Source of the DNA: a virus
Virus record (IMG/VR): IMGVR_UViG_3300027896_000011
Span: 1 to 64,000 of that record
Strand: one strand, 5' to 3'
DNA length: 64,000 nt
The position numbers were made by a program, and so were the translations under genes. How positions within the stretch are numbered: the stretch's first letter is position 1; the number at the start of each line of letters is the position of its first letter. The notes under the pieces were generated by a model, which did no database searches, had not been told where the DNA came from, and was given only the letters and a program-made list of their open reading frames with translations. Below, piece by piece: positions 20,293 to 61,227 of this stretch.

Positions 20293-20318
20293 ACAAAAGT
20301 CACGAGTGTGACTTTTGT
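20293..20318. terminator. Hairpin between convergent operons
   Basis: Perfect 11-base stem ACAAAAGTCAC / GTGACTTTTGT with loop GAGT. It lies 3 bases after the rightward operon's last stop and 18 bases past the leftward mini-operon's last stop (20337). There is no strong U-tract on either strand, so it may be a weak bidirectional terminator or an RNA-stability element. Confidence 0.5.
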
Positions 20319-20336
20319 AGACGGGGGACTGGAGAA

Positions 20337-20399
20337 TTATTTGCCTTTTACTGTATGTAACGCAGGCATTCCCTTCTTTCCCCAGGTCTTTTTCAGCAT
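20337..20399 (-). CDS. Possible 20-residue peptide, third gene of the leftward mini-operon
   Basis: ATG 20399 overlaps the preceding gene's end as ATGCTGA. The product MLKKTWGKKGMPALHTVKGK is short and very basic. The only support is the overlapping start and the lack of other content in this gap; it could be chance. Confidence 0.3.
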   Translation of the reverse strand: MLKKTWGKKGMPALHTVKGK

Positions 20400-20518
20400 T
20401 TCCAGTTTTCCAACTCAATTTCCAGATCGTCAGCTAGACGATCTAGAGCCATCTGGTCTAAGCCAGATGACTGCTTAGATTTGAATACCTCCTCTAACTC
20501 TAACTTTTGTTTTGTCAT
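20393..20518 (-). CDS. Small acidic helical protein (41 aa)
   Basis: ATG 20518 lies 1 base past the stop of the previous small gene. The product starts MTKQKLELEEVFKSKQSSGL and ends ADDLEIELENWKC; it is amphipathic and strongly helical in appearance. A GGTG ribosome-site remnant precedes it and translation may be coupled. Family unknown. It is part of a three-gene leftward mini-operon outside the main replication block. Confidence 0.5.
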   Translation of the reverse strand: MTKQKLELEEVFKSKQSSGLDQMALDRLADDLEIELENWKC

Positions 20519-20519
20519 G

Positions 20520-20594
20520 TTACACCAGGAAGTAAATTGCGGTGAATACTATCAAAAATGTCAAATCCCATTTGTAGATCATGTTTTTGAACAT
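20520..20594 (-). CDS. Tiny single-pass membrane peptide (24 aa)
   Basis: Strong ribosome site TAGGAGG six bases before ATG 20594. The product begins MFKNMIYKWDL and continues TFLIVFTAIYFLV, a hydrophobic run long enough for a membrane helix with a basic N-terminal side. Such peptides in phages may act in lysis, superinfection exclusion or host membrane modulation. The function here is unknown. It follows a candidate promoter at 20613-20642. Confidence 0.5.
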   Translation of the reverse strand: MFKNMIYKWDLTFLIVFTAIYFLV

Positions 20595-20612
20595 GGTTTT
20601 CCTCCTATATGT

Positions 20613-20642
20613 CTTATACCGTTAATAGGAGTAGAATTTTCA
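20613..20642 (-). promoter_or_regulatory. Candidate promoter of the small-gene mini-operon
   Basis: On the minus strand, TGAAAA (20637-20642) and GGTATAAG (TATAAG at 20613-20618) are 18 bases apart. The GGTATAAG element recurs before the leftward operons at 40098 and 51629. Predicted start lies about 12 bases before ATG 20594, just ahead of the ribosome site. Confidence 0.4.
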
Positions 20643-40097: not shown

Positions 40098-40126
40098 CTT
40101 ATACCCGCAATTTACAGTTATTTGCA
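40098..40126 (-). promoter_or_regulatory. Candidate promoter P2 of the leftward replication operon
   Basis: On the minus strand TGCAAA (40121-40126) and GGTATAAG (TATAAG 40098-40103) are 17 bases apart, with the first ATG about 50 bases downstream. The GGTATAAG element is shared with the starts of two other leftward operons (20613, 51629). Confidence 0.45.
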
Positions 40127-43450: not shown

Positions 43451-44292
43451 AGCACATTACTGAATTACATTTGGCTGGTATGCTAAGCGAGCTAAAAAAA
43501 GAAGCTGGTGTTGCATCAGATATTGCTTCACGTGGTCTTCAAATGCTTCGCAAGGTACCTACGTTACCACTTGTGAGTAGGATTCCTGGTATAAATTCTA
43601 GAGTAGGACAGACCCTTGCTGGCGGTGCATTAGGTGGTGCTATCGGTGCTGCTACTGGTGAAGAGGGCGATAGACTTCATAGAGGTGTAATGGGTGGGTT
43701 GTTAGGAGCAAGTGCTGTAGGTCTTGGGCACATGGCTACACAGAGTGGTAGAGATGCTGCAAAGAAATCTATGGGGAATTTATGGCAGAGGTCTAAATAC
43801 CAATTTACTGGTAAAGGTCTAGAAGGTACGCCGGAAGCTAGGATATTAAAGGCCAGAGAGATTGGTCTTATTCCTGAAGCAGGTAAAAATAAAGCTGTAG
43901 ATGCTGCACAAGAACATGCATTGAAAAATGATTGGTTATCATTACCTGGTGCGGTACATGGTCTAGTTACTCAACCCGGACAAGTATTAAAGAATTCTTG
44001 GAATAGAATGGATACAATGGGTAAAGGGCTTACTGCTGCAGGTGGAGCGATTACTGCCGCAGATATGATACAAAAGCCAACTCCAGAAGGTCCCGGTAGA
44101 TTAGAAAAGGGATTGGGTGGATTAGCTTCAACTATAGGCTTTACTGCAGGACCTGCAGGTATCTTACCGGGCATGTTGATGGGTAGTTGGGCAGGTAAGG
44201 CAGGACAAAGGGTTGGACGTGTGGGGGATAGATTGTTAGGGTACAACCCTGCAGCTGAGGCAGCGCCTATGTATGAAGGGGCTGTACAATGA
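43447..44292 (+). CDS. Glycine-zipper virion protein next to the portal
   Basis: A 281-residue product; ATG 43447 is inside the ATGA overlap with the previous gene. An upstream in-frame start at 43390 lies within that gene and is not used. It has GGALGGAIGAATG and GGLLGASAVGLG, then GKGLTAAGGAITAADM and GFTAGPAGILPGMLMGSWAG: four Gly/Ala segments that could form membrane helices or a pore. A basic linker lies between (MGNLWQRSKYQFTGKG). Proteins with this architecture in phage head operons may be injected with the genome. It overlaps the portal gene by 4 bases. Confidence 0.55.
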   Translation: MKHITELHLAGMLSELKKEAGVASDIASRGLQMLRKVPTLPLVSRIPGINSRVGQTLAGGALGGAIGAATGEEGDRLHRGVMGGLLGASAVGLGHMATQSGRDAAKKSMGNLWQRSKYQFTGKGLEGTPEARILKAREIGLIPEAGKNKAVDAAQEHALKNDWLSLPGAVHGLVTQPGQVLKNSWNRMDTMGKGLTAAGGAITAADMIQKPTPEGPGRLEKGLGGLASTIGFTAGPAGILPGMLMGSWAGKAGQRVGRVGDRLLGYNPAAEAAPMYEGAVQ

Positions 44293-47200
44293 GTGTAGGT
44301 TTAGGCGGCGCAGATTCCTCTGCACTTCGTTTCTCTAGAACTCGAGGTCGTACTGGAGCTTCTTCTGATTACGGGCTACAGTACCCTAGTCCTTTTTTTG
44401 ATATCGGGCAAACGTATTTACCCGCCACTATTAAACAGATGTTTAGGTGGTGTCGGTATTACTTCTTAGTTAATCCATTGATCAATGCAGTGGTAGCTAA
44501 GATGGCGGATTATCCTGTTACTGATATTATTCTAGATACTGACAAGCCGGATTTAAAAGAAAAGTGGTATCACTTTTTAGATTCACAGCTTAGGTATCGT
44601 CCTTTTCAGATTGAACTAGGACTTGACTTTTATGCCTATGGTAATGCTTTAGTTAGTATCTTTTATCCGTTTATAAAGATGCTTAGGTGTAAACGTTGTG
44701 GGCATGAGAAACCTGCAGCGGATGCTACATATCGATTTCAGAATTTTGAATTCCACTGGGAGTGTTCTAAGTGTAGCCATGCTGATATTGCTACTGTAAG
44801 AGACCATTACGTTAAGGCACCTAAAGGTATACGTCTTTTACGTTGGAACCCGGAAGATATAGATATCAGATATAATGATATTACTGGGGATACGGAATAC
44901 TATTATACGATTCCGGTACAGATCAAAAATGATATTATTATGGGGAAGAAGTCTACTGTAGAGACTATGCCTCAGCTCTTTATCGATGCTTTAAGGCTAA
45001 GAAAAGCCGTAGTGTTTTCTCGAGACAACATCTATCACTTCAAGCGGCCTACATTGGCCGGAAAAGATAGAGGTTGGGGTACTCCTTTAATACTGCCAGT
45101 ACTTAAGGATACCTACTACCTCCAGGTCCTGCGAAAAGCTCAGGAATGTCTTACACTTAGCTCTCTTTTAGAGAGGCCATTTGATCTTTGTAAAGCAAGC
45201 GAGATTAGGATTGGAGACCTAGTAAAGACGCATACAGGAGCGTATAAACGGGTAACAGATATTCGTCCTAAGCTCATAAACGAACAAAACGGTGGTTTTA
45301 CGGTACAAGTAGCTACTAAGGCTATGAAAGCTTTTCCGACCGGTTATTCTGACAATCATCCTCTCTATGTATTGCGGAGAGAAGAATTGGCCACTGGGTG
45401 TAGGGCGAATAAGCACATCAATACTAAGTATGTTCGGCGTTATACAGACGAGTATGCGCCTAAATGGGTAAATGCTGGAGATGTCAAACTTGGTGAGTAC
45501 GTAGTTTATCCTATAGATAGGCTAAAGAACACATCCGGGGAGGTATTGGATATATCACAGTATACTGGATTGCCAGCAACAACAGACTGGGTATATCAGC
45601 AATCATCTAAAGAAACAGTAGATGCGTACGAGGCTCTTGAGCAGGGAGACGAACTTCCGTGGGCTGATAACGCCCAACATGCAGCGCATACCCTTCATAA
45701 TAGGGGAAAGACGCCTCCACGGGTAAAGAGGTATATCTCATTAGACGAAGATCTTGCTTACTTATCCGGGTGGTTCATCGGAGACGGCAGTACAGGTGAC
45801 CGACAAATAAGCATAGCTCTAGGGCTTAAGGACGATTATAAGCTTCTTGCTAAGGCATTTAAAAAGGTATTTGGTAAGGAGCCTAAAATCTCTAAGAGTA
45901 AGAGATTTAATGGTCGTTTACTTGTTCACAGTGATGTGATTGCGACTAAATTTATGCGTGGTTGGATACCTGGTGATGCACACACTAAGAGCCTGCCAAA
46001 AGAAATTCAGCAAGCTCCAGACCAAATATTATTGTCTTTCCTACGAGGATATGTTGAGGCAGATGGGTGCTTTCATAACGACCTTGATCGAGTAACATTT
46101 ACTTCGGTAAGTCCTCAGCTTGCTTATCAAGTATGGAAGCTTCTTATTTCTCTTCGATGTGTGGCTAGGGTATCCAAGAGAAAAGAATCGCAATCAATTA
46201 TTGAGGATAAGCTTGGACGTAGAAACAAGGCTATAAGTGGTGTCTCTTATGATATAGTCTTAGATGGGTCATCTGGACGTAGATTACGTGCGCTTTTGTA
46301 TGGTGGAGAAGTTGAAGACGCAGCCGGAGGGCATACAGGATTTTTTCACGGGGATTATTTTGCCTCTCCTATTTGTAATTGGGAACGCCTAACAGAACAG
46401 CACGTATTGAGTTTTGAAGTAGAAGATGATCATACTTTTTGCACTCCAGGAATGGTGACGCATAACAGCATCGCGCTCGAGCACATTGTGCCGCTACGCG
46501 TCTTATTCCCACAAGCCGGGTCGGCCTCCTCGGACCCATACTGCGTTGCGTTAGATAGCCTTGTAGAGACTCGAGAAGGAATATTTCCTGCTGGGGAAGT
46601 CAAGAAGGGTGACTGGCTAAAGACACATACAGGTGCGTGGAAGCCTGTTGAGGCCGCCGTAGATCGTAAAATTCGTACTGGTGAGAAGGTATACGAATTT
46701 TCTATTGCTTCTCTTAGTGCCTTTCCATTTAAGGTATCTGAGGAGCACCCAATACTCGCTGTAAAGCGGCCCTCAAGATTTAGAGGCTATGAGAGCCTTA
46801 CCGAAGAACCGGACTATATTGAGGCCAAGAATATTGACGAGGGGGACTTTGTTTGTTACCCCAAGCATAGAACCGTTTGGGATAGTCTTGACCTAGATCT
46901 TCACGAGTACTGTCCTGAGCGTGCATTCACTGCTGAGTATATGTACCGTAGGTTAGATCAACAGTCTGCGGACATCTATGAGTACTTTGAGGCTAATGGT
47001 GTGCCTAGCTTTGCTCATGGAGAACGTAAGACCTTCTTGGCCGACAAAGGTTGGACCGAAGATTACTACAATAATGCTAAGGCGGTGTTTAGCCAGCAGG
47101 AAGCTGTTGATAGGATTCCTAGGTATCTGCCAGTTACAAAAGACCTGGCGTACGTAGTAGGTATGTATGCGGCTGAAGGTAGTCAGAAGGATTTAGGTAT

Positions 47201-50200
47201 TTCTTTTAGTCTTAATGCGGCTGAAGATTCCATCATGGGCGCTTTGGACTCTGCGCTACAAGGGATGGGGTTTGCTAGTGGGCACAGATACATACGAGAT
47301 AACTCCGCGCAGTACGATGTTGGTGATGTATTTTTGGGCAGCTTACTGCCTCAGCTGTGTGGCAAAGGTGCCCAAAATAAACGATTACCAAGGTTTATTG
47401 TTGAGGCTCCAGAAGAGATTGCGCTTCGTGCAGTAGAGGCAGTGTTTCTAGGTGATGGTTGTTCAATAAATAGTAAAACTCGTAGAGAAGGATTAAAGAC
47501 TGTCAGCCCTCAGTTAACTATAGACGTGCGTGCCATACTACTTTCTTTTGGTCTAATAGCTAATGTACAAAAGAGTATTCCTGGGGAGCACGAGATAGCT
47601 AAACTTCCGTACTACCAAGTCAATTTAAACGGATCACAGGGAGACGCCTTCGCTAACCTGTGTAGTAGCGGAACGCGTACACACAAAGGATTCAGTAGGT
47701 GTGGGTTTGTTCGTGGTGATTATGTCTATCTGCGGGTAAGTAAAAAATCAGAATCTCCAGATGTCAAAGTAGTACGTGGCTTCCAAATCAAAGGAGATAA
47801 GTCCTTCTGTATTGTTGGCGTAGCTACGCACAATACGAGCGTGAATCTTCAAGATTGGCACGATCAGATCGCAGGAGAATTACGTCGTTGGAGAAGCGAT
47901 AATTCGTATATTCCTATTCTTCCGTTACCTATTGGACAACAGACCATAGGTGGTGATGGTAGAGCTCTGCTTCTTTCACAAGAAATACGAGTATGGAGCG
48001 AACATATTATTGCGGGTATGGGTGTCCCAACGGAGCTCATTTTTGGTGGTCTCTCGTATTGTCAAGCTCCTGATACTCTCTTGTTTACGTCTCACGGTCT
48101 CGAGACATTAGAAGAGCTGACCCCAGCTGAAGAGGGGCAAGGGACATCAAATCGCAAAGTAGTAAGCCATATGGGCGTGAGAGACGTTGTTAGAACGCAT
48201 CACGTAGGTCTTAAAAAGGCAGCGTCGGCAAAAACTAGGCTTGGTCTGGAACTTACTGGAGCGTATACGCACCCCGTGTATGTACTACAGCCAGATTTAA
48301 CTATGGCATTTAAAACTATGGAGGAATTGAAGCCAGGAGATAGAGTGGCTGTAAAAGCGGGAGCTAACCTTTGGCCTAAGGACACACCTAAAATTGACTT
48401 TCATACGACAAAATCTGGAGACCGGTTTGAGGACGTTACTATCCCACAGGAGTTAACTCCAGAATTAGCCAGACTTTTGGGATATTTAATAGCAGAAGGT
48501 TCTTGTACTGAGGCGCGTAGAATTGGCTTTGGAAATTCTGATCAAGAAGTAAATACTGACTTTGCAGATTGCGTAGAGGCTGTGTTTGGATACCGTCCAA
48601 AGTTCCATCTAAATCTAAGTATGCCTGTAACCACCAAACCATTTTATCAGACTGAGATATCAAGGCAGCAGGCAACTGAGTTTCTCTACGCATTAGGTAT
48701 CGGTGGTTATGCTGCTGAAAAAACGGTACCTAGAATTATACGTCTTGCTCCTAAGCATCTTGTAGCAGAGTTTTTACGAGCTTATTTTGAAGGAGATGGC
48801 GGGTCAGAGGACGTAGAAGACAAACAAGCAGTTACCGCCTGTTCAATGTCGGGTAGACTCCTTCAAGAAATACAGCTATTGATGCTGAATATGGGTATTG
48901 TTACTTCTAGGTATTTCCCAAGAGTTAAGTCAACGTTCACACTACAAGCCAGGTCAGAGTATGTAGATATTTTTGCAAAAGAGATTGGGTTTATTTCCAG
49001 CTGTAAAAAAAGAATACTTTCACAGAGAACCCCTACTAGAGGATCTTCTTGTCTATCATCTCAAATTCCATATCTAAAAGAGAGATTAGAGGAGTTTAGA
49101 GATCGTCATTTTGAGAATAGGTCTTCGTGGAAGTTTGAATCTGTAAACGTTGAGTTGCTGCAGGAACAGTATACTGTTGATGAGATTGCAGTACTTACAA
49201 ACAGGGAACGCTCTACTATATTGCTGCACATTAATTCTGGAGCACTTACAGCGGTAAAGCAGCCATCTGTACAAGGTAGATTTGCTGCATATACTGTCAG
49301 TCGTCAAAATTTAGAATATTTTCTTAAACATCATGGTTTAGGTAGACGTAGAACAACACCAAAGAGTTTCTGGGGCATGAGCTATGAGAAGCTAGCTACT
49401 AAAGATCTTTCTTTTATTAAAGAAAAAGAGCCTGATTTTGCTCGGCGTATAGAAAATTTAGCTGAGATGCGTTTAATCTGGGATGAGGTACAGGAAGTAA
49501 ATCTTTTGGATATAGAAATTCCTATGCGTGATTTGACGGTGGATGAGGCTTCTACGTACCAAGGTAACGGTGTAATTAGCCATAATTCCGGATCAAATGT
49601 ATCTTTACGTATGCTTGAGAATATGTTCCTTGGTTATCTTTCCGATCAATTAGCTTTACTTCGTTGGATAATCGAAAAGACTGCCTCATACCTTGGTTGG
49701 GCTAAAGTAGGAGCTAGGTTCAAGCCATTTAAGATGGCAGATGATCTGCAGAGAAAGGCATATCTATTCCAGCTTAATCAAGCCGGAAAGATATCAGATG
49801 AGTCTCTTTGCTCTGATGCTGATTATGATTCATCTAAAGAAGATGCGATCATGGAGAACGAAGCTACTCGTCGCATAGGAGCGATGAAGAAGCAACGATT
49901 GCTTCAAGCAGAGATGGAAGGCGAAGCAGCTATGGTCCAGCAGAAGTGGCAGACCAAAGCACAGAATAAAGCTATGTCAGAACAAATGGCTATTCAAGGA
50001 GAAGCGGCTAAAGATCAAATGGCATTCCAATCTCAGATGCAAAATGGAATGATGCAAGATCAAATGGCTGTTCAAACAGGACAAGAAGCGCCACCTAAAA
50101 CTCCAGATATGATGCCTGCTCCTCGAGACCCATCGTTGTTATCTGTACCTAAGGGGATTACCTCTCCATTAACACTACAAAGTGTTCAACAGCATCCAGT

Positions 50201-50471
50201 TTCTGCGTCTAATGCAGATATAGCTGGTGGGCAAAATGTAGACCTGTTGTTTATGGCTAGAAAATTAGCTGATAAGTTTTCTAGACTTAACCCCGGAGAG
50301 AAACCAGTAATGTTAAGTAGGCTTAAAGAACTTAATCCTATACTGTATTCTACGGTTACAGGGCTAATGATGAGCGGAGGGAATGGACCCACCGCTGCAG
50401 CTCAAGCCTCTGCGAGGCCGTTGCCATTGCAACGAACACCCCGCAGAGGATCTGAAGCTGCTCAAATCTAG
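44289..50471 (+). CDS. Portal protein precursor with three inteins
   Basis: A 2060-residue precursor; the three inteins (1380 residues) leave a 680-residue mature portal. The extein sequences join well: RKAQE-SIALEHIVPLRVL, SSDPY-TSVNLQDWHDQI and FGGLSY-SGSNVSLRMLENM. The pattern MGVPTELIFGGLSYSGSN with its long following helices fits the portal family. A zinc-type insert (CKRCGHE ... ECSKCSH, about 134-162) lies near the front. The C-terminal part is Gln/Met-rich and helical (MSEQMAIQGEAAKDQMAFQS). The portal is the dodecameric DNA gate of the capsid; splicing is needed before assembly. GTACAATG has no strong ribosome site, so translation is probably coupled to the preceding gene. Confidence 0.88.
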   Translation: MSVGLGGADSSALRFSRTRGRTGASSDYGLQYPSPFFDIGQTYLPATIKQMFRWCRYYFLVNPLINAVVAKMADYPVTDIILDTDKPDLKEKWYHFLDSQLRYRPFQIELGLDFYAYGNALVSIFYPFIKMLRCKRCGHEKPAADATYRFQNFEFHWECSKCSHADIATVRDHYVKAPKGIRLLRWNPEDIDIRYNDITGDTEYYYTIPVQIKNDIIMGKKSTVETMPQLFIDALRLRKAVVFSRDNIYHFKRPTLAGKDRGWGTPLILPVLKDTYYLQVLRKAQECLTLSSLLERPFDLCKASEIRIGDLVKTHTGAYKRVTDIRPKLINEQNGGFTVQVATKAMKAFPTGYSDNHPLYVLRREELATGCRANKHINTKYVRRYTDEYAPKWVNAGDVKLGEYVVYPIDRLKNTSGEVLDISQYTGLPATTDWVYQQSSKETVDAYEALEQGDELPWADNAQHAAHTLHNRGKTPPRVKRYISLDEDLAYLSGWFIGDGSTGDRQISIALGLKDDYKLLAKAFKKVFGKEPKISKSKRFNGRLLVHSDVIATKFMRGWIPGDAHTKSLPKEIQQAPDQILLSFLRGYVEADGCFHNDLDRVTFTSVSPQLAYQVWKLLISLRCVARVSKRKESQSIIEDKLGRRNKAISGVSYDIVLDGSSGRRLRALLYGGEVEDAAGGHTGFFHGDYFASPICNWERLTEQHVLSFEVEDDHTFCTPGMVTHNSIALEHIVPLRVLFPQAGSASSDPYCVALDSLVETREGIFPAGEVKKGDWLKTHTGAWKPVEAAVDRKIRTGEKVYEFSIASLSAFPFKVSEEHPILAVKRPSRFRGYESLTEEPDYIEAKNIDEGDFVCYPKHRTVWDSLDLDLHEYCPERAFTAEYMYRRLDQQSADIYEYFEANGVPSFAHGERKTFLADKGWTEDYYNNAKAVFSQQEAVDRIPRYLPVTKDLAYVVGMYAAEGSQKDLGISFSLNAAEDSIMGALDSALQGMGFASGHRYIRDNSAQYDVGDVFLGSLLPQLCGKGAQNKRLPRFIVEAPEEIALRAVEAVFLGDGCSINSKTRREGLKTVSPQLTIDVRAILLSFGLIANVQKSIPGEHEIAKLPYYQVNLNGSQGDAFANLCSSGTRTHKGFSRCGFVRGDYVYLRVSKKSESPDVKVVRGFQIKGDKSFCIVGVATHNTSVNLQDWHDQIAGELRRWRSDNSYIPILPLPIGQQTIGGDGRALLLSQEIRVWSEHIIAGMGVPTELIFGGLSYCQAPDTLLFTSHGLETLEELTPAEEGQGTSNRKVVSHMGVRDVVRTHHVGLKKAASAKTRLGLELTGAYTHPVYVLQPDLTMAFKTMEELKPGDRVAVKAGANLWPKDTPKIDFHTTKSGDRFEDVTIPQELTPELARLLGYLIAEGSCTEARRIGFGNSDQEVNTDFADCVEAVFGYRPKFHLNLSMPVTTKPFYQTEISRQQATEFLYALGIGGYAAEKTVPRIIRLAPKHLVAEFLRAYFEGDGGSEDVEDKQAVTACSMSGRLLQEIQLLMLNMGIVTSRYFPRVKSTFTLQARSEYVDIFAKEIGFISSCKKRILSQRTPTRGSSCLSSQIPYLKERLEEFRDRHFENRSSWKFESVNVELLQEQYTVDEIAVLTNRERSTILLHINSGALTAVKQPSVQGRFAAYTVSRQNLEYFLKHHGLGRRRTTPKSFWGMSYEKLATKDLSFIKEKEPDFARRIENLAEMRLIWDEVQEVNLLDIEIPMRDLTVDEASTYQGNGVISHNSGSNVSLRMLENMFLGYLSDQLALLRWIIEKTASYLGWAKVGARFKPFKMADDLQRKAYLFQLNQAGKISDESLCSDADYDSSKEDAIMENEATRRIGAMKKQRLLQAEMEGEAAMVQQKWQTKAQNKAMSEQMAIQGEAAKDQMAFQSQMQNGMMQDQMAVQTGQEAPPKTPDMMPAPRDPSLLSVPKGITSPLTLQSVQQHPVSASNADIAGGQNVDLLFMARKLADKFSRLNPGEKPVMLSRLKELNPILYSTVTGLMMSGGNGPTAAAQASARPLPLQRTPRRGSEAAQI
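45147..46466 (+). mobile_element. Portal intein 1 (440 aa, LAGLIDADG type)
   Basis: Residues 287-726 of the precursor. It begins CLTLSSLLERPFDLCKASEI, has block B-like GYSDNHPLYVL, and ends DHTFCTPGMVTHN before Ser. LAGLIDADG motifs: LSGWFIGDGSTGD and FLRGYVEADGCFHN. Complete and apparently intact. Confidence 0.9.
46542..47834 (+). mobile_element. Portal intein 2 (431 aa, LAGLIDADG type)
   Basis: Residues 752-1182. It begins CVALDSLVETREGIFP, has block B-like VSEEHPILAV, and ends KSFCIVGVATHN before Thr. LAGLIDADG motifs: VVGMYAAEGSQKD and VEAVFLGDGCSIN. It sits only 25 extein residues after intein 1. Confidence 0.9.
48060..49586 (+). mobile_element. Portal intein 3 (509 aa, LAGLIDADG plus HTH)
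   Basis: Residues 1258-1766. It begins CQAPDTLLFTSHGLETLEEL, has block B-like TGAYTHPVYVL, and ends TYQGNGVISHN before Ser. LAGLIDADG motifs: LLGYLIAEGSCTE and LRAYFEGDGGSED. A helix-turn-helix-like segment (QYTVDEIAVLTNRERSTILL) lies after them and may help DNA targeting; it is absent from the other two portal inteins. Confidence 0.88.
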
Positions 50472-50845: not shown

Positions 50846-51400
50846 TTAGTTTTCAGTTGTTCTTTCATACAATATGACATCTCCTTCTGCTTCATCACCC
50901 TCTCCCAATATCTTTCTGATACAACTTGGGCAAAGGATCAGTTTTTCACAAGTAGCATCCAGAGTGTATTCTGGATTGCCGTTTTCTACTTCTGCTGCTT
51001 TCTCAGGGCACCATACGGTGACCTGGTATACTCTATGTCCCAGATCTAGACACCTACGACAAGCATCACAATGTCTAGAATCTCTATCATCTGGTGCTAC
51101 AATCTCGTCATCTAACGTTCCACAGTTACTTATGAAACAATCATAATGAGCAAAGATGGTAGTTACACACGCATCTTCTGGCAATGCATTGGTAGGCAAA
51201 TCTGCCCATGATTGGAACCGTAAGAATCGCGGGTCCTTTCTCATAGACAGCATTTGCCCACCTTCTATGACTACCATTTGATGCCCAGCAATCTGGGTAT
51301 CACACTCACAACTTAGGCAATCTGGAGCATCCGGACAGTCCGGACAATGTTCCCTTGGACAAATCGGACAATAATTAGTTATACGAACTACAGGGACCAT
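50846..51400 (-). CDS. Cysteine-rich protein, probably multi-zinc
   Basis: A 184-residue product with many cysteines: YCPICPREHCPDCPDAPDC and LSCECD at the start, then HCDACRRCLDLGH in the middle, and CEKLILCPSCIRKIL near the end. This suggests two or three zinc sites. The remaining sequence includes TVWCPEKAAEVENGNPEYTL. Such proteins may bind nucleic acid, host RNA polymerase or other proteins. No strong ribosome site is visible, so translation may depend on the upstream acidic gene. Function unknown. Confidence 0.6.
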   Translation of the reverse strand: MVPVVRITNYCPICPREHCPDCPDAPDCLSCECDTQIAGHQMVVIEGGQMLSMRKDPRFLRFQSWADLPTNALPEDACVTTIFAHYDCFISNCGTLDDEIVAPDDRDSRHCDACRRCLDLGHRVYQVTVWCPEKAAEVENGNPEYTLDATCEKLILCPSCIRKILGEGDEAEGDVILYERTTEN

Positions 51401-51628: not shown

Positions 51629-51657
51629 CTTATACCCTTAAGCGTCGTATAATTTCA
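51629..51657 (-). promoter_or_regulatory. Candidate promoter of the leftward Cys-rich/acidic cluster
   Basis: TGAAAT (51652-51657) and GGTATAAG (TATAAG 51629-51634) with 17-base spacing on the minus strand. It shares the GGTATAAG element with the sites at 20613 and 40098, and it overlaps the rightward TATAAT. Confidence 0.4.
51648..51653 (+). promoter_or_regulatory. Candidate -10 element for the RNA polymerase gene
   Basis: A perfect TATAAT at 51648-51653, 66 bases before TTG 51719. No good -35 is seen at 16-18 bases upstream, so the promoter may be weak or use another factor. It is nearly back to back with the leftward site. Confidence 0.35.
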
Positions 51658-51718
51658 TGCCCATATTCCTGTAATTCTGATACCTTAAGGACAACACACA
51701 TAAACAAGCGAGGAATTC

Positions 51719-54700
51719 TTGGCACGCATTGCACCGGAAGAGGGGTTTGAACTCCTCAAAGACCGAGTACAAAAAGCAGTCAGTGGATTCTTCCCCATAA
51801 TCGGGCGGAAGAATACGCTAGAGCTCCATGATATATCGGTTAAAGATAACCTGAATATCGATGATATTAGGTCCCAGAAACACGCTAAGTTGAGTGGTCG
51901 TTCCTGGACTGTACCAGTAGAGGCAACTATTGCCCTAAAGGACAATACTACTGGGTCGATAATCGATAAACAGAAGATGAACTTGCTTAACCTGCCTAAG
52001 GTTACAAGACGCTATGGCCATATCGTAGATGGCCAGGAGTATCAGATAGATAACCAGTGGCGCTTAAAGCCCGGTATCTATAACATGGTTAAACAAGACG
52101 GAGCTATTGAGTCTCACTTTAATGCGGCAGGAGGCTTTAAGATACATTTTGATCCAAAGTCTCGTCAATTTACATTGAACTATGGTAATTCTAATATGCC
52201 TCTTAGACCCTTCTTACACGCCATGGGGGTGTCTGAAGAGGAAGTAGAAAATCGTTGGGGTAAAGATATCGCTACGGTTAATCATGCTGATAGTTCTAAA
52301 GAACTTATTAAGTTTTATAGAGCATCCACTGGGGATAAGACCGTTAAGCCCACTATAGATGAGGCAAAGTCTCATTTGTGGGATGTAATGCAAAAGACGG
52401 TACTACGTCCGGAAGTAACTAAATTTACTCTAGGTAAAGAATATACAAACGTTACTGGGCATACGCTTTTAGATGCGTCAGATAAATTATTGAAGATATC
52501 TAGAGGCGAAGCGCAGCCAGACCCTAGAGACGCTTTGATGTTTAAAGATCTCCATTCAATTGAAGATTTTGCAGCAGAACGTCTTATTAAAGGTTCTAGA
52601 GAAATTCTTCGTAAAGTAAATAATAATATTGATCGTAAAGATAAAGTACGAGACATCATAGCTCCAGAAATATTTAATCGTCCGATCAAACAGATGTTTG
52701 GAAAGAATTCCTTAGCAATTGTTACTGATCAGACTAACCCGTTAGAGATGTTCTCCGCTAATATGAAGACCACCATTATGGGAGATGGTGGTATTAAATC
52801 AGAGCATACTGTTTCAGATGAGGCGAAACTTATAGATCCGTCTCATTTAGGATTTCTTGATCCAATACACACTCCCGAAGGATGTTACGATTCTGAGACA
52901 GAGGTCTACACAAAGACTGGCTGGAAGAAGTGGATAACCGTAACAGAGCAAGATCAATTAGCTTGTCGAGTAGACGGTAGATTAGAGTTTCACCTCCCTA
53001 CAAATCTGATCAATGCCCCATATAAGGGGAAAATGTATGGGGTAAATACCGCACGAAACAAGCAGCGTAGAAAGAGAGAAATTGATTATTTAGTAACGCC
53101 CAATCATAGAATCTACTGTCGTACTAGAGACCTCAGGGGAAAGGCCCTATTTCGTATAGAGACCGCAGACGTGGTGCACGGTAAAGCTAGAGACTTAGAA
53201 CTTGGGCATGACCCGTATCTAGGTTCCAAAGAAACGGGCGTATTTCATTTGCCTTACGTAAAGGGAAACAACTCTTCAAAGAACGTAGACGAGATCAACA
53301 TAGGTGACTGGGCTCAATTTATAGGGTGGTTCCTGTCTGAGGGGAATTGCACGTATGATGATGTAGGTTCCCACTATAGTGTCTGTATTTCACAGAGTAT
53401 AGTTACGTCTAGAACTAACTGCGAAATTATTGAGGCGCTGCTCGATAGGTTACCCTTTGCTTGGAGTTTTTCTGAAAGAGAAGATGGTAAACGCACCTAT
53501 CGGGTAAGTACAAAGCAGCTAGCGCATTATGTCTCTCAGTTTGGACTTAGTTACAATAAGTCCATACCAGAGTACTTTTTCGAATGTTCTGTGGAAACAC
53601 GAGAATATTTATTAGAAGCACTGCTGTTGGGGGATGGCAGGAAAAACTCACATAGGGCTACTGGCGCATCTTATAAACAGCTAGTATACTGCACAGTTAG
53701 TCCACAACTCGCTCTAGATGTGGAGCGCTTAGCAATAAGCTTGGGGCGTCCCGTATCTATGTGCCGGTATGCAGATGACCGAGAAGAGCGATATAGAGAC
53801 GTTTATGAGGTACGTTTACTGTGTCAAACAAAACGAGAAATTCAAGGCGCTAAAGGACACTTTTATACCTCTGAGTACGACGGCACTATTCACTGTGCAA
53901 CTGTTCCAGGAGGGCTACTGTACGTACGCAGGGGAACGGGGTTAGCACACTGGAGCGGTAATAGCGCCACAGGTATCACACTGCGTTTACCTTTAGGTGT
54001 ACATAAAATAGGGCATGATGTTGCTATTAAAATGTACAATACAAAAACTGGAAAAGTTGAAAACGTCAATCCTACTGTCGCTTATAAATCTCATATAGCT
54101 CTGCCAGATCAAATTACTTGGGAGGGCAATAAACCTAAAGCTGCTGGTAAAGTTGTAAAAATTAGTGGGCCGGGTAATGAAATATATGATGGTACGTTAA
54201 AAGATGCTGATTATGTAATGAAGAGTCCGATGCAGATGTTTTCCATCTCATCTAACATGATTCCTTTCATGCCGTCAGATCACCCTAATCGTAGTACCAT
54301 GGCCGGAAGACAGATGGAACAGGCTATCTCTCTAAAACATAGAGAAATCCCCTTAGTACAAAGCTTGGCCGGTAAAGAAAGTTTTGATCGTATACTTGGA
54401 AGCTTTGCCAGTCATAGCGCAACTGTTAGTGGTACAGTATCAAAGATAAAACCAGACGCTATAGTAATTAAGAGACCTAACGGTACTAAGGAAGAAGTGT
54501 TCATTTATGATCACTTTCCACTTAATGAAAATAAAGCGTTTATGCATGCAGAGCCTTTAGTAAAGGTCGGAGATAAAGTAACTAAAGGGCAAGTTATAGC
54601 TGATACAAATTACACTAAAGATGGCGTATTAGCTATAGGTACTAATTTACGTACAGGGTTTATGCCTTATAAAGGATATAACTTTGACGATGGTATTGTA

Positions 54701-57700
54701 GTCAGTGAGAGTGCAGCTCAAAAATTAACCAGTGAACATCTTCATAGACATTCATTAGAACGAGATGTATCTCACATTTTGGATAAGAAGAAATTTACGG
54801 CTTATATGCCTACTGTACTGAATAAAACTCAGTACGATAAATTAGATGAAGAAGGCGTAATCAAACCAGGCACTGTCGTAATGCCGGGAGATACTCTAAT
54901 AGCAGCATTACGTGCTTCAAATAATCCGGAACGTAAAGAAGATTTAGAACTTTCAAAGTTACATAAGTCTATTGTTAAACCATATAAAGACTCGAGTATT
55001 AAGTGGGAAAGCGATTACCCAGGAGTAGTTAAAGAAGTAGTTAAGATTGGTAAGAATGTTTCTGTACACGTAAAAACTGAAGAAGCCTTAGACATCGGAG
55101 ATAAGCTCTGTTACGACGAAAAGCACGAACTATTGACTACTCGTGGATGGGTTCCGGTAAAGGACGTAAAGGTATCTGATGAGGTGTGTTCACTCAACCC
55201 GGAGACTGACGCGATAGAGTACCTGTGCCCGGAGAAGACAGTCAGCTATGATTGTGTAGAGGATGATCTGTACGTCTTGGAGACTACACAAGTGTCTATG
55301 GCTGTCACCATGGAGCACAAAACATATGCAAAGCCTAGGGGAGCGGATAGGCACAGCCTAATTCCAGTCTCTCAGTTAGTAGGTAAGCGTTATCATTTAA
55401 AGCAGCACGGTAAATGGGTGGGGGAAGACAGAGAGACATTTGAGTTCCCCTCTATGGTAGTCAAGGCTGGGCAGAGTGGTAATGGTACCAGAGTGCTGCC
55501 ATCAATACAGATGCCGATGGACACATTCTTAATGCTTCTAGGAATGTACTTGTCGGAGGGCAACAATTATGGTGGTAACGGCGACTACTACATAGAAATC
55601 ACTCAAATAAAGCAACCAGGAAGAGCTCAGACAGAGGAGGCTCTGGCATTAGCAGGAATACGTTTTACGCGTACTCCTGAAAAGATACGCATACACGGTA
55701 AGCAGCTGTATGAGTATTTCGTGCAGTTTGGGCATGCGGTAAATAAATTTATTCCTGATTGGATTTTTCAGCTTCCGAAAAAACGGTTACAGGTTCTGTA
55801 TAAATGGTTAATGTGGGGGGATGGCTGTGAAAAAGGAACCACACACGTATACACCACTATATCCCCTCAGCTAGCCGATGATGTACAGCGTTTAGTTTTC
55901 CATCTTGGTAAGGCAGGCAGAGTGGTGTGGGAGCCTGGTTATCGTGGCCAGATAGAGGGCAGGTATTACGATTTTAAGCCTAGATATAGAGTTAGGGTAA
56001 TACGCACTAAATTAGAGCCCACAATAAATCACGGGCACTCTAATTCACAAGGCGGACAAAAAGAAACTATAGAGAAGTACACCGGTAAGGTGTACTGCGT
56101 GGCTCTTCCACGTAATCACGTACTCTACACACGTCGAAATGGTAAATGCCACTGGTCTGGTAATACGGCGCGCCACGGCAATAAAGGCATAGTGACACGG
56201 ATCATACCTGATCATGACATGCCCCATACTAAAGATGGTAAGCATTTAGAGGTGTTGTTAAACCCGTTAAGTGTTATGGGTAGAACTAACTTAGGTCAAG
56301 TATTAGAGGTTGCTGCAGCCAAAGTGGCGGAGAAGACTGGTAAACCTTATATGGTTAAGAACTTTTCTCCGAATACAGATTTACATGCCCAAGTCACTGC
56401 TGACTTAGCCAAGCACGGTTTGACGGATAAAGAAGAAGTTATAGACCCCGTTACAAATAGAGTAATGGGTAATGTGCTTGTAGGACCTATGCACATTTTT
56501 AAGCTCCACCATCAGGTGGAAAAGAAGCTTAGTGCTCGAGCAGGTGGTTATGGGTATGACTACGATAAAGATATGATTCCTAAAGGTGGTGGCCCACGAG
56601 GAGCCAAGTCTCTCGGAACACTAGGCCTTTATTCTATGCTGGCGCATGGAGCGACATCTAATCTGCGGGAAATGCAGACTTATAAAAGCGATGCGTCACA
56701 AGGTGATCAATTCTGGTCTGCTCTCCAAGCTGGAGAGATGCTTCCTACTCCTAAGCCGACCTTTGCTTACAATAAATTTCTTGGGTACATCAGAGGACTT
56801 GGTGTAAATGTTCAGAAAACAGGTAATAACCTTACGCTTATGCCTATGACTGACAAGCAGATCATAGAACAAAGCAATGGTGAGATTACCGACCCCGCTA
56901 AGTCAGTCACAGCTAAAAATATGAAGCCTGAAATAGGGGGATTATTTGATCCTAAAGTTACAGGTGGTATTGATGGTACAAAATGGGGCTTTTACACACT
57001 CCCAGAATCTATGCCTAACCCCGTATTCGAAAGTGCTATTACTCGTTTGTTGGGAATGAAGCAAAAAGAGTTTGCAGGCTTAATTGGTGGTACGTTAGCA
57101 GTAGACCCAAAAACCGGAAAGATAGGAGATTCTCAAAAAATTGAGGGAGGGCTGGTTGGTGGTAAAGCCTTTGCTCATATGCTTAGTAAAATAGATGTGA
57201 AAAAGGATTTAGCTGCTGCCAAAGTAGCGCTAGATAAACCGACATTAAGAGGGACGTATCTTGATCATGCTAATAGTAAAGTAAAACTACTAGAGGCTTT
57301 AAACAAGGTTGGTATGACGCCAGTAGAAGCGTACATGTCTAAAGTCATTCCTATATTACCGCCATCTATGCGACCTGTTCCAGTGTTGCCTAATGGTACT
57401 ATTAGTGAAGAAGATTTGAACGGTCTTTATAAGAATCTTCATTTGTCTGCGTCTAGATACGCGAAGATGTCTCCATTGATTCCAGAAGATGATCAATCTA
57501 AAGTAGAGATTCGACAAGAAGTCTATGATGGTTTACGAGCAATAGCTGGACTTGGTGGTTACCCACATCAAATTCGTAGAGGAATCTTAGACTACATACA
57601 TGGTAAGAAGATGGACACTCGTACGGATGCTAAGATAGGTTCTCCTAAAGAAGGATTCTTTCAAGATAAATTGGTTGAACGTAAGCAAGATATGTCTATG

Positions 57701-60025
57701 CGTGGAACTATTATCCCTGAACCATCTTTAGGTCTGGATGAAGTAGGTCTCCCAAGAGAAGCAGCGATTGAAGTATATAAGCCATTTGTAATTCGTGAAT
57801 TACGAAATCTATTGGGAATACCGCCTTTACAGGCGCAAAAAAAATTGGCGGAAGGTGGGGAGATAGTAGACCGTGCTTTACAAAAAGTTATATCTACTAG
57901 GCCTATTTTGCTTAAACGTGATCCGGTACTACATAAGTACGGGGTACAAGCGTTTAAGCCACGTATAGTTGGTGGTAAAGCTGTACAGGTTCACCCTCTA
58001 GTTACCAGTGGTTTTAACGCAGACTTTGATGGCGATGCAATGGGTGCTTTCGTACCTGTAAGTATGGATGCTGTAGCAGAAGCATATAAAATGCTTCCAT
58101 CTAGGAACCTATTCAGTCCGTCTAGCGGGGAGATCATGTATGCTCCCACTAACGAGAGCAGATTAGGTCTATATGGTATTACTCAGACTGGTAAAGATAC
58201 TAATCATAAGTTCACTAATATGCAGGACTTAGAGACTGCTATTAGAACAGGCGCAGTAACCTTTACAGATCAAGTAACCGTTGGCGGTATTAAATCAAGC
58301 GCTGGTAAGTTTATGGTTGCTGGAGCCCTTCCAGAAACTATGCGTAGAGAAATATTAGAACGAAAAACACCTCTAGATAAAAAAGCACAAGAAGAACTCT
58401 TTACTCAAGTAGCTAGAGAACACAAGAATGATTATGGTGAAGTAGCTAATAAGCTAAAAGATCTGGGCAATAAGTGGGCTACAGACACTGCCTTCTCTTT
58501 CGGTATGACAGATATTGCGCCGGAACGACAAGTAAGAGATAGGATTCTTGCTGCTGCAGATGCTCAAGTTCATAAACTCACTGGGGCAAATAAAGATAGT
58601 AAAAAGATAGACATATACTCCAAGGCAACGGAGGAAATGAATAAGCATTTGAAGGCAACTCCTGAAAGCCAAAACAACATTATGATTCTACATAATGTGG
58701 GCATGAAAGGAGGCACGGATACTTTGAGACAAATACGTGCTACTCCTATGCTTATGAGTAATCATAAAGGAGAAATCCTCCCTAATCCTATCCGCAAATC
58801 TTATGCCGAAGGATTGGATGTTGCAGACTACTGGACGGCTATTAGTGGTGGTCGTAAAGGTATTATTCAGAAAGTTCAATCTGTTGCCGAACCTGGTTAT
58901 ATCAGCAAACAGGTAATGAACTCTGTTATGAATAACCTTATCTTAGATCATGATTGTGGTACTGATAAAGGCATCTCTTTGCCGGTAGATGAAAAAGATA
59001 TTTTAGGTAGATTTACTGCTGCGGATATTAATGTAGGCGGACATGTAATAAAATCTGGTGCATTAATTACCCCAGAAATGCGTAGTACGCTACGTAATAA
59101 TAATATTGGTAAAGTAGTAGTCAGGTCTCCTTTGCGTTGTTTACATGGTCCTGGTCTTTGCCAGAAATGCAACGGATTAACGGAGAATGGAGAATTACCA
59201 GCAAAAGGTTTGAACGTAGGTGTATTAGCTGGTCAAGCATTAGGAGAACGTAGCGTACAGTTGGCTATGAAGGCTTTCCATAGTGGAGGTAGCGCTGCTT
59301 CAAGGAGTGGTTTAGTTGATGATTTTGAACGTGTAAAAAATCTACTATCATTCCCGAAAATACTTCCTGGTTCTGCTACGCTTAGTGAGTTGAATGGTAA
59401 GGTAACAAAAATAGCTCCCTCACCTGCTGGTGGTCATGAAGTAAGCATAGAAGACAAAGTACACTATATTCCTCACGCGTTAGGGGCTCCTGTATACAAT
59501 GGACAACCTTTAAAAGTTGGTACGGAAGTAAAAAAGGGGAGTCCTATCTCTAACGGATTGATAAACCCTCATGAGATGTTAACGCTTACAGGAGTAGAGC
59601 CAGTACAACTTCATCTCGCTAGTGAGCTAAGTAATGCTTATGCAGATTCCGGAATCCGTAGAAGAAATCATGAAATTGTAGTTAAAGCACTAACTAATCT
59701 CACTAAGGTCAAAGACCCTGGCTCTTCATCCGGACTTATCCGTGGTGATTTTGCTTCTACAACATATGTATCTAACATTAATAGAAACATGCCAAAAGGC
59801 TCTAGACCTATAGTACATGAGCCCATACTTAAAGGCGTTAATGTGCTACCTTTGGAAATGCAAGAAGACTGGATTGCAAAACTTAATCATGAGAATCTAT
59901 CGGAAACCATTATAGATGCAGCTCAAAGAGGATGGACTAGTAGCTTACATGGACTACATCCTATTCCAGCTGTAATTTATGGAGCTGAGATTGGATTACC
60001 CGGTAAAGGAAAGGTCGGATATTAA
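51719..60025 (+). CDS. Fused beta/beta-prime RNA polymerase with two inteins
   Basis: A 2768-residue precursor and 2056-residue mature chain. It follows both bacterial subunits in order. Beta: DPIHTPEG (385-388 end), SISSNMIPFMPSDHPNRSTM, YKGYNFDDGIVVSE, IGDKL, and RHGNKG (1485-1490). Beta-prime: KWGFYTLPESM, DLNGLYKNLHLSASR, the active-site NADFDGD (2100-2106, three Asp for catalytic Mg), NPIRKSYAEGL with DYW, SPLRCLHGPGLCQKC (zinc site near 2474-2484) and GQALGERSVQLAMKAFHSGG. The beta-prime N-terminal zinc domain was not found, and the total is about 700 residues shorter than E. coli beta plus beta-prime. TTG 51719 has an AGGA site. Its place among virion genes suggests a virion-carried or late enzyme. 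Confidence 0.93.
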   Translation: MARIAPEEGFELLKDRVQKAVSGFFPIIGRKNTLELHDISVKDNLNIDDIRSQKHAKLSGRSWTVPVEATIALKDNTTGSIIDKQKMNLLNLPKVTRRYGHIVDGQEYQIDNQWRLKPGIYNMVKQDGAIESHFNAAGGFKIHFDPKSRQFTLNYGNSNMPLRPFLHAMGVSEEEVENRWGKDIATVNHADSSKELIKFYRASTGDKTVKPTIDEAKSHLWDVMQKTVLRPEVTKFTLGKEYTNVTGHTLLDASDKLLKISRGEAQPDPRDALMFKDLHSIEDFAAERLIKGSREILRKVNNNIDRKDKVRDIIAPEIFNRPIKQMFGKNSLAIVTDQTNPLEMFSANMKTTIMGDGGIKSEHTVSDEAKLIDPSHLGFLDPIHTPEGCYDSETEVYTKTGWKKWITVTEQDQLACRVDGRLEFHLPTNLINAPYKGKMYGVNTARNKQRRKREIDYLVTPNHRIYCRTRDLRGKALFRIETADVVHGKARDLELGHDPYLGSKETGVFHLPYVKGNNSSKNVDEINIGDWAQFIGWFLSEGNCTYDDVGSHYSVCISQSIVTSRTNCEIIEALLDRLPFAWSFSEREDGKRTYRVSTKQLAHYVSQFGLSYNKSIPEYFFECSVETREYLLEALLLGDGRKNSHRATGASYKQLVYCTVSPQLALDVERLAISLGRPVSMCRYADDREERYRDVYEVRLLCQTKREIQGAKGHFYTSEYDGTIHCATVPGGLLYVRRGTGLAHWSGNSATGITLRLPLGVHKIGHDVAIKMYNTKTGKVENVNPTVAYKSHIALPDQITWEGNKPKAAGKVVKISGPGNEIYDGTLKDADYVMKSPMQMFSISSNMIPFMPSDHPNRSTMAGRQMEQAISLKHREIPLVQSLAGKESFDRILGSFASHSATVSGTVSKIKPDAIVIKRPNGTKEEVFIYDHFPLNENKAFMHAEPLVKVGDKVTKGQVIADTNYTKDGVLAIGTNLRTGFMPYKGYNFDDGIVVSESAAQKLTSEHLHRHSLERDVSHILDKKKFTAYMPTVLNKTQYDKLDEEGVIKPGTVVMPGDTLIAALRASNNPERKEDLELSKLHKSIVKPYKDSSIKWESDYPGVVKEVVKIGKNVSVHVKTEEALDIGDKLCYDEKHELLTTRGWVPVKDVKVSDEVCSLNPETDAIEYLCPEKTVSYDCVEDDLYVLETTQVSMAVTMEHKTYAKPRGADRHSLIPVSQLVGKRYHLKQHGKWVGEDRETFEFPSMVVKAGQSGNGTRVLPSIQMPMDTFLMLLGMYLSEGNNYGGNGDYYIEITQIKQPGRAQTEEALALAGIRFTRTPEKIRIHGKQLYEYFVQFGHAVNKFIPDWIFQLPKKRLQVLYKWLMWGDGCEKGTTHVYTTISPQLADDVQRLVFHLGKAGRVVWEPGYRGQIEGRYYDFKPRYRVRVIRTKLEPTINHGHSNSQGGQKETIEKYTGKVYCVALPRNHVLYTRRNGKCHWSGNTARHGNKGIVTRIIPDHDMPHTKDGKHLEVLLNPLSVMGRTNLGQVLEVAAAKVAEKTGKPYMVKNFSPNTDLHAQVTADLAKHGLTDKEEVIDPVTNRVMGNVLVGPMHIFKLHHQVEKKLSARAGGYGYDYDKDMIPKGGGPRGAKSLGTLGLYSMLAHGATSNLREMQTYKSDASQGDQFWSALQAGEMLPTPKPTFAYNKFLGYIRGLGVNVQKTGNNLTLMPMTDKQIIEQSNGEITDPAKSVTAKNMKPEIGGLFDPKVTGGIDGTKWGFYTLPESMPNPVFESAITRLLGMKQKEFAGLIGGTLAVDPKTGKIGDSQKIEGGLVGGKAFAHMLSKIDVKKDLAAAKVALDKPTLRGTYLDHANSKVKLLEALNKVGMTPVEAYMSKVIPILPPSMRPVPVLPNGTISEEDLNGLYKNLHLSASRYAKMSPLIPEDDQSKVEIRQEVYDGLRAIAGLGGYPHQIRRGILDYIHGKKMDTRTDAKIGSPKEGFFQDKLVERKQDMSMRGTIIPEPSLGLDEVGLPREAAIEVYKPFVIRELRNLLGIPPLQAQKKLAEGGEIVDRALQKVISTRPILLKRDPVLHKYGVQAFKPRIVGGKAVQVHPLVTSGFNADFDGDAMGAFVPVSMDAVAEAYKMLPSRNLFSPSSGEIMYAPTNESRLGLYGITQTGKDTNHKFTNMQDLETAIRTGAVTFTDQVTVGGIKSSAGKFMVAGALPETMRREILERKTPLDKKAQEELFTQVAREHKNDYGEVANKLKDLGNKWATDTAFSFGMTDIAPERQVRDRILAAADAQVHKLTGANKDSKKIDIYSKATEEMNKHLKATPESQNNIMILHNVGMKGGTDTLRQIRATPMLMSNHKGEILPNPIRKSYAEGLDVADYWTAISGGRKGIIQKVQSVAEPGYISKQVMNSVMNNLILDHDCGTDKGISLPVDEKDILGRFTAADINVGGHVIKSGALITPEMRSTLRNNNIGKVVVRSPLRCLHGPGLCQKCNGLTENGELPAKGLNVGVLAGQALGERSVQLAMKAFHSGGSAASRSGLVDDFERVKNLLSFPKILPGSATLSELNGKVTKIAPSPAGGHEVSIEDKVHYIPHALGAPVYNGQPLKVGTEVKKGSPISNGLINPHEMLTLTGVEPVQLHLASELSNAYADSGIRRRNHEIVVKALTNLTKVKDPGSSSGLIRGDFASTTYVSNINRNMPKGSRPIVHEPILKGVNVLPLEMQEDWIAKLNHENLSETIIDAAQRGWTSSLHGLHPIPAVIYGAEIGLPGKGKVGY
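52883..53962 (+). mobile_element. RNA polymerase intein A (360 aa)
   Basis: Residues 389-748, inserted after TPEG, a highly conserved beta motif near the active centre (the E. coli IETPEGPNIG region). It begins CYDSETEVYTKTGWKKW and ends LLYVRRGTGLAHWSGN before Ser. LAGLIDADG motifs: FIGWFLSEGNCTYD and LEALLLGDGRKNS. The penultimate residue is Gly rather than His. Confidence 0.9.
55109..56164 (+). mobile_element. RNA polymerase intein B (352 aa)
   Basis: Residues 1131-1482, inserted in beta motif IGDK(L)-xxRHGNKG, which carries two active-site lysines. It begins CYDEKHELLTTRGWVPVKDV and ends VLYTRRNGKCHWSGN before Thr. LAGLIDADG motifs: LLGMYLSEGNNYG and YKWLMWGDGCEKG. It also ends SGN, so the two RNAP inteins are probably related. 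Confidence 0.9.
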
Positions 60026-61227
60026 TGGGGTCAACGTTTCATAACTCTGTAACAACTACCGGAAACAGAGCTCCAAGACTTGAAACAGGTATAGTGTCTA
60101 GCGTCAACCCACAGAACATGACACTAGATTGGGTGGCCCAACATACCGGAAAACAACAAGCTGGGGTTCAAATTATGACCCCTTATATTCATTATAATAA
60201 CGGCGAGGGCTTTACCTGTTTGCCAGAGCCAGGTGCTGTTTGTGTTTTATGTTGGCCCTCAGATGAAGAATCTCCCTTTGTTATGGGGTTTATTACCCCA
60301 CCAGAATCGGCCCCAGCTAATGCCGGTAGTACAGATAAAAGTGCTTCTCCACCTGTAGTTAAAACTGCTTCATCTACTGGAGCTGCAACACCAGCATTAT
60401 CAGACGCTAGCTATAGGTGCAATAGACCTGTCTTGAATCCAGGAGATATGCTGTGGCAAGGTAGAGATGAGAATTTTATAGCTTTGCGTAGGGGTGGTGT
60501 TCTTCAGATAGGTTCTACCAACATTTGTCAACGGGTGTATATTCCTGTTGGAAATTATATTAGAGATTTTTGTGAAAATTGGGAGGTGAATACTGCTGCA
60601 GGTTCTATGAGCTGGGTAGTGCACCCTTCTGAAAGTACCCCGGAAAGTAATGCTCCTACAGAATTCTCTCTTATAGTCAGAGAATATGCTCAAGATAAAA
60701 TGGCCTCTATTAAGGTAAGTGTAGGTTCTTTATTCAATGAACCTAAGTTGCCTAGCGGAGTAGATTCTTTTTTAGAGATTATTATTGCTCCAGATAACAT
60801 TGATCCAAAAGATGGAACTGTATCGAGTCCCTTGTACACACTACGTATAGGTAAAGATGGTAGTACTGAAACAATTCAGGCTGATCGAAAAGTAACTATC
60901 AACGGTAAAGATAATCTAGACGTTGAAGGAGATCAAACTATCTATGTAAAAGGGGATAGAGCATTGACTGTAGATGGCGCAATTACAGAAGCAGTCAAAG
61001 GTGCATATAGCATCACCGGAGAAAAAGGAAGTGCAGAGATTTGGCATGAGGTTAAGTCAATAGATGCTGCTGCCGTGAAACTAGGTTCAGCAAGCGCTTC
61101 CGAGCCAGCTGTTCTTGGATTACAATTATTAAATTGGCTCGCAACGCATACGCATGTGCCTAATGGACCACCTACAAGTTCCCCCACATTATCTAGTATT
61201 CTTGCCAAGAAAACTTATGTAGCGTAA
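60025..61227 (+). CDS. Baseplate spike protein (gpV/gp5-like)
   Basis: A 400-residue product starting within the last base of the polymerase stop. Residues 1-95 form an OB-fold-like domain (GIVSSVNPQNMTLDWVAQH; NNGEGFTCLPEPGAVCVLCW), typical of phage gpV spikes. A beta-helix-like shaft follows near residues 280-335 (TINGKDNLDVEGDQTIYVKG; DRALTVDGAITEAVKGAYSI). The end LLNWLATHTHVPNGPPTSSP resembles the HTH-x-P-x-G ending of spike proteins. Spikes pierce the host envelope during contraction. No lysozyme domain like that of T4 gp5 was recognised. Confidence 0.75.
   Translation: MGSTFHNSVTTTGNRAPRLETGIVSSVNPQNMTLDWVAQHTGKQQAGVQIMTPYIHYNNGEGFTCLPEPGAVCVLCWPSDEESPFVMGFITPPESAPANAGSTDKSASPPVVKTASSTGAATPALSDASYRCNRPVLNPGDMLWQGRDENFIALRRGGVLQIGSTNICQRVYIPVGNYIRDFCENWEVNTAAGSMSWVVHPSESTPESNAPTEFSLIVREYAQDKMASIKVSVGSLFNEPKLPSGVDSFLEIIIAPDNIDPKDGTVSSPLYTLRIGKDGSTETIQADRKVTINGKDNLDVEGDQTIYVKGDRALTVDGAITEAVKGAYSITGEKGSAEIWHEVKSIDAAAVKLGSASASEPAVLGLQLLNWLATHTHVPNGPPTSSPTLSSILAKKTYVA

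Follow-up and report, generated by a model that had tools for sequence, protein, structure and literature searches.

How much of a cellular RNA polymerase (RNAP) can a phage carry in one polypeptide, and which of its genes might such an enzyme transcribe? The question is raised by a single reading frame in the window, by which we mean the whole 64,000-nucleotide stretch analysed here, from an IMG/VR virus record of 167,997 bases. A first-pass annotation had read this frame as a beta/beta-prime fusion interrupted by two inteins, lacking the beta-prime N-terminal zinc domain and lying among virion genes. The frame runs for 2768 codons with no internal stop, from a TTG start with GAGG 5 nt upstream, and is composed as follows (window positions).

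51719..60025, plus strand: single-chain beta-beta-prime RNAP gene; precursor of 2768 aa, 2056 aa after two splicing events
51719..52882, plus strand: extein 1, the beta N-terminal part, 388 aa, ending ...DPIHTPEG and holding the aligned Rif-pocket/fork region
52883..53962, plus strand: intein 1, 360 aa, insertion point TPEG|S, with LAGLIDADG-like motifs
53963..55108, plus strand: extein 2, mid-beta, 382 aa, with GYNFDD at about 54674-54691
55109..56164, plus strand: intein 2, 352 aa, insertion point GDKL|T just ahead of RHGNKG
56165..60022, plus strand: extein 3, the beta C-terminal part and all of beta-prime, 1286 aa

Both inserts begin with Cys (C1) and end in HWSGN, which is followed by Ser after intein 1 and by Thr after intein 2. 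They share 28% identity with each other, and one relative (L028) carries, at the site of intein 2, an intein of 73% identity to it. Pfam intein models score only weakly on either (LAGLIDADG_3, E about 0.03); their identity as inteins rests on the termini, the mutual similarity, the L028 intein and the empty sites in relatives. Since the protein of relatives at about 32-87% identity runs uninterrupted across both points, the intein boundaries and the fusion are real and the inserts are facultative inteins, and the mature length that we compute is the 2056 residues of the first-pass annotation. Chains above 2300 aa, with inteins or large inserts, account for 18 of 129 complete relatives (about one in seven), the insertions falling at several distinct positions within conserved catalytic segments. 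Portal (window 44289-50471), the large terminase subunit and a protein resembling a head protease (contig 65107-68223 and 71321-74275) likewise have intein/LAGLIDADG matches and make up an unusually intein-rich virion gene block.

Pfam places Rpb2_3 and Rpb2_6, then Rpb1_2, Rpb1_3 and Rpb1_5, in the one chain. Searched by profile, the beta half finds PDB beta chains (1e-141) and the beta-prime half finds PDB beta-prime chains (1e-167), and the chain can be aligned along most of both bacterial subunits at about 28% identity. At the level of sequence, this confirms a two-barrel, cellular-type RNAP with beta and beta-prime as one polypeptide, as the succession of beta and then beta-prime motifs in a single frame had first indicated. 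The structural side of the expected likeness to bacterial RNAP was borne out in part: Foldseek matched AlphaFold models of the two halves to beta and beta-prime chains, the same kinds as the profile matches, and only these fold matches were used, the models themselves being modest (pLDDT 60-66, poor global geometry, assembled active site not displayed). The landmarks of the spliced enzyme are these.

56174..56188, plus strand: beta HGNKG, the active-site lysine loop (by alignment)
56759..56831, plus strand: fusion junction, from the beta C-terminus TFAYNKFLGYIRGLGVNVQ to the beta-prime N-terminus LTLMPMTDKQ, with a linker of few residues
56945..56986, plus strand: FDPKVTGG-DGTKW, the gap replacing the four-Cys beta-prime zinc ribbon (by alignment)
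58016..58036, plus strand: NADFDGD, the catalytic Mg-binding motif of beta-prime
58955..59170, plus strand: second beta-prime zinc site, retained (C..., CLHGPGLCQKC; by alignment)
59243..59281, plus strand: trigger-loop motif GERSVQLAMKAFH

By alignment, beta runs to about residue 988 of the mature chain and beta-prime begins at about 993, which leaves practically no linker. The conserved basic residues of the beta barrel, GDK...RHGNKG, are present. In every fused protein aligned, the zinc ribbon FC..IFGP..CxCG...CxxCG has given way to FDPKVTGG-DGTKW, a clean deletion that accounts for the absent N-terminal zinc domain. Several contact positions of the Rif pocket, corresponding to E. coli Q513, H526, R529 and S531, carry substitutions, and transcription by the single-chain RNAP is therefore predicted to be rifampicin-resistant. 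Repeated intein invasion and loss of the zinc ribbon could be imagined in a degenerate or non-transcriptional relative, e.g. a primase-like or regulatory protein. We hold this to be very improbable, since the catalytic Asp triad, the lysine-loop motif and the trigger loop are kept down to about 37-40% identity (the second zinc site in most members) and since the inteins sit at conserved catalytic positions, where a useful spliced product is required.

The fused frame is also widespread. Non-redundant IMG/VR loci numbered 137, made up of 129 single chains (median length 2107 aa), eight loci cut by contig ends and none that was split. The same frame in 129 loci rules out the assembly chimera that the first-pass annotation had allowed for; that rpoB and rpoC are separate genes merged by assembly or annotation, for which we found no point in favour, is next to inconceivable, the more so as the cultured Salmonella phage Arash (OQ632216) has beta and the N-terminal part of beta-prime in one gene. 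Arash and the Vibrio phages D181, D148 and D69, at about 31-34%, are the nearest kin among 50,697 annotated phage records. The C-terminal part of beta-prime in Arash lies in another gene (gp206 + gp216); beta-prime is split in the same way in D181, after the active-site barrel, and a group I intron breaks up the beta part there. The split point is identical in the two phages, just past the barrel, and jumbo phages and cyanobacteria are reported to split beta-prime there as well (PMC7598289). D181 carries two group I introns in all (L002 6432-6639 and 10229-10509), near homing endonuclease genes, one being that within the RNAP beta part. Certain 'phage' records with rpoBC, e.g. Acinetobacter MD-2021a, were excluded as phage RNAP on their bacterial gene neighbourhood.

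The phylogenetic comparison proposed at first pass was made with a quick beta-prime tree with long branches, covering only phage sequences and 26 bacterial ones (rpoC from a scan of GTDB genome contigs, which gave bacterial rpoC only). In it the fused chains form one group (SH-aLRT 94), joined with Arash/D181 (100*) and standing apart from the 26 bacteria (100*). Both subclades have the beta-beta-prime join, so it probably predates the split of beta-prime.

The surroundings of the gene, and the sigma factor gene encoded elsewhere on the contig, are as follows.

44289..50471, plus strand: portal gene, homolog of Arash gp204; neighbours RNAP on its upstream side, a conserved arrangement, and carries intein and LAGLIDADG matches
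50846..51253, minus strand: small divergent gene beside RNAP, kept in close relatives, with a weak GFA-domain match
60025..61227, plus strand: gp5-like spike/baseplate gene directly downstream, sharing one base with the RNAP stop codon; conserved neighbour
contig 163568-164332: sigma-70-family gene (Sigma70_r3 5.8e-7, Sigma70_r2 weak, PHROG sigma family 1.4e-16)

The order portal, RNAP, gp5-like spike, two more genes, terminase recurs here and in most relatives examined, and the location among virion genes, with portal on one side and a gp5-like spike/terminase block on the other, is as had been claimed. Homologs in Arash or PHROGs gave portal, terminase, capsid and sigma their names. The terminase scores highest with GpA_ATPase (PF05876), PF03237 being weak in some relatives and above cut-off only in Arash, and the capsid has no Pfam match. 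In the sigma protein, region 3 is above the Pfam cut-off and the PHROG match extends to the C-terminus; the region 4 model PF04545 was not found in it, a region-4-like C-terminus being seen by eye only. Of 13 fused-RNAP records tested, 10 have a sigma gene, as do Arash (two annotated sigma genes) and D181; the three records in which none was found are of 62-134 kb and are possible fragments. The 168-kb contig, which may be incomplete, gave no match to alpha or omega, and either could have been missed. Elsewhere in the genome, a family A DNA polymerase occurs as two adjacent genes (window 26217-28429, minus strand), whose Arash homologs are annotated as two separate polymerase proteins; a Cas4-like exonuclease gene lies within the replication cluster (window 23000-23878, minus strand); and 23 tRNA genes are clustered with an RtcB RNA ligase gene (contig 118270-131790).

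If the polymerase has a sigma factor of its own, does the genome have promoters to match? A k-mer screen of upstream regions yielded GGTATAAG, and from it the promoter class GnAAA-N16/17-GGTATAAG-N5-TG. On the 168-kb contig, a GnAAA box stands 14-17 bp ahead of GGTATAAG at 13 sites against 0.6 expected (at most 2 in 60 simulations); all 13 of these promoter-like sites are intergenic, 12 have a spacing of 16-17, and most lie ahead of non-structural genes. The core GGTATAAG-N5-TG has 47 matches in 12 fused-RNAP records, with at least one in 11 of them, and the reversed control has none. In Arash, the strand with the non-structural genes has 30 copies of GGTATAAG and the opposite strand a single one, with about 2 expected per strand; D181 has no excess of the motif. 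Sites of the sigma70 type, judged by the E. coli consensus, are if anything rarer than in shuffles. The sites that bear on the window, with the leader of the RNAP gene, are listed here.

51676..51713, plus strand: RNAP leader, with conserved TCTGnTAnnnT, ACACATA (51696-51702) and Shine-Dalgarno GAGG (51710-51713); specific to the RNAP gene
51629..51657, minus strand: promoter-like site TGAAAT-N15-GGTATAAG, a variant copy, facing away from RNAP towards 50846-51253
40098..40105, minus strand: GGTATAAG promoter-like site ahead of the replication gene cluster
20613..20620, minus strand: GGTATAAG promoter-like site, with a second copy at 20259-20266 (minus strand)

The CTTATA core of the site at 51629..51657 is invariant in 10 relatives. 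The sites at window 20259-20620 point left, with no called gene of at least 45 aa downstream, and perhaps serve a short gene or antisense RNA. Two elements of the RNAP leader were rejected as wider signals: ACACATA as a genome-wide promoter, for which there was no enrichment, and TCTGnTAnnnT as a general late promoter, since it occurs at no gene start other than that of RNAP.

We propose, and consider reasonably probable, that the single-chain RNAP works with the phage sigma at phage promoters, its alpha scaffold replaced by the fusion. The two inteins must splice out of conserved catalytic segments, and the covalent join of beta to beta-prime would stand in for the alpha-dimer scaffold, so that one chain and sigma would make up a complete holoenzyme. 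Chain and sigma would start at promoters with a GnAAA box, 16-17 bp spacing and GGTATAAG, mostly at non-structural genes, which would free phage transcription of at least one gene class from host RNAP. The pairing of phage sigma and single-chain core with GGTATAAG promoters is one of association only, and the motif could instead be read by host core with phage sigma.

Phage sigma factors commonly redirect host RNAP, and this lends some weight to a different reading, in which the phage enzyme is a non-virion polymerase for middle or late genes only and GGTATAAG is read by host RNAP, which the phage sigma may redirect. Jumbo phages that lack an RNAP are treated in PMC7824862. TTGACA-type boxes at a few structural transcription units would suit this reading as well. 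We nevertheless think it unlikely: searching de novo for motifs ahead of late genes brought out only a ribosome-binding-type sequence, and sigma, promoter core and unusual RNAP recur together in most members. A late-gene polymerase was one of two roles suggested at first pass, and the phage's own sigma and a promoter class ahead of non-structural genes argue against a purely late-gene role.

The other role was that of a virion enzyme: the chain, with sigma, would be made late, packed, injected and set to transcribe early genes from GGTATAAG in the next host. RNAP is flanked by portal and spike/terminase genes in nearly all of the relatives looked at, the sigma gene lies within the virion-gene region both here and in Arash, GGTATAAG sites are mostly upstream of non-structural genes, and host-type sigma70 promoters are few, all of which would fit an injected enzyme. 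However, the RNAP gene has its own conserved leader and does not follow directly on the portal gene, and the Arash record tags many proteins 'structural', gp206, gp216 and sigma gp10 not among them (portal and capsid are untagged too). We therefore regard packaging as a tentative possibility that falls short of an even chance. The fuller proposition, that a widespread tailed-phage lineage packs the chain and a sigma-70-type factor in the virion, injects them and reads GGTATAAG without host RNAP or alpha, we consider distinctly doubtful.

In the reading that we prefer, a single-chain core with its own sigma, the phage would provide a natural minimal cellular RNAP: one chain, sigma alongside, and alpha and omega not found in the contig. 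This makes it possible to test directly to what extent a covalent join takes over from the assembly subunits, whether the enzyme can do without the beta-prime zinc ribbon, and how a reduced core initiates with sigma. Arash, as a cultured relative, gives a handle on the biology, and a recombinant sigma-programmable polymerase is a possible tool. The findings also refine what is known of the build of a large, little-studied group of RNAP-encoding phages.

How, then, does this enzyme compare with those already described? Bacterial RNAP has the zinc ribbon, alpha and omega, whereas the window chain is without the ribbon and its contig without a match to either small subunit. Helicobacter and Wolbachia have natural rpoB-rpoC fusions, joined directly as here; these are cellular enzymes that retain alpha, omega and the zinc ribbon. 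Arash and D181, the sister clade in the beta-prime tree, have the beta-beta-prime join, a portal gene just upstream and a sigma homolog in common with the contig (Arash also the GGTATAAG core), but unlike the window chain they continue beta-prime in a second gene.

The mReC phages (2020, Weinheimer and Aylward) are likewise contigs of tailed phages in IMG/VR, whose beta and beta-prime are recognisable and form one clade apart from bacteria. Their main text gives beta and beta-prime as two subunits, mentions fusion for crAssphage only and is without sigma or promoters (PMC7481178). The hallmarks given there are terminase PF03237, capsid PF07068 and an RNAP branching apart from all cellular RNAP (PMC7481178); the terminase here is instead best matched by GpA_ATPase, and the capsid is without a Pfam match. 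The samples of two named mReC representatives (3300017989, 3300000786) were absent from our IMG/VR scans. Phages with the fused chain probably belong to or overlap the mReC lineage. The first-pass view of the arrangement as new or nearly so needs amending in that it is no one-off, at least 129 viral contigs having it, although the mReC main text reports no such fusion. Among the openly readable papers searched, none was found to describe a phage enzyme with near-cellular beta and beta-prime in a single chain.

The two-barrel RNAPs known from phages are either split multisubunit enzymes (PMC7598289, PMC7824862) or diverged single chains (PMC10770324), and the window chain, a recognisable full fusion as the first-pass annotation had said, is neither. 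The jumbo phages phiKZ and AR9 resemble it in encoding beta/beta-prime homologs without alpha or omega, but theirs comprise 4-5 separate polypeptides with no sequence-recognisable sigma, in place of one chain and a sigma-70-family protein (PMC7598289); no sigma factor was found in group 1 jumbo phages with multisubunit RNAP (PMC7824862). The crAss-like phi14:2 gp66, P23-45 gp64/gp96 and YonO hold both barrels in one polypeptide, as here, and some of them are virion enzymes (PMC10770324, PMC5467207). Those chains are highly diverged from cellular RNAP (PMC10770324, PMC5467207), whereas the window chain can be aligned along most of the cellular subunits.
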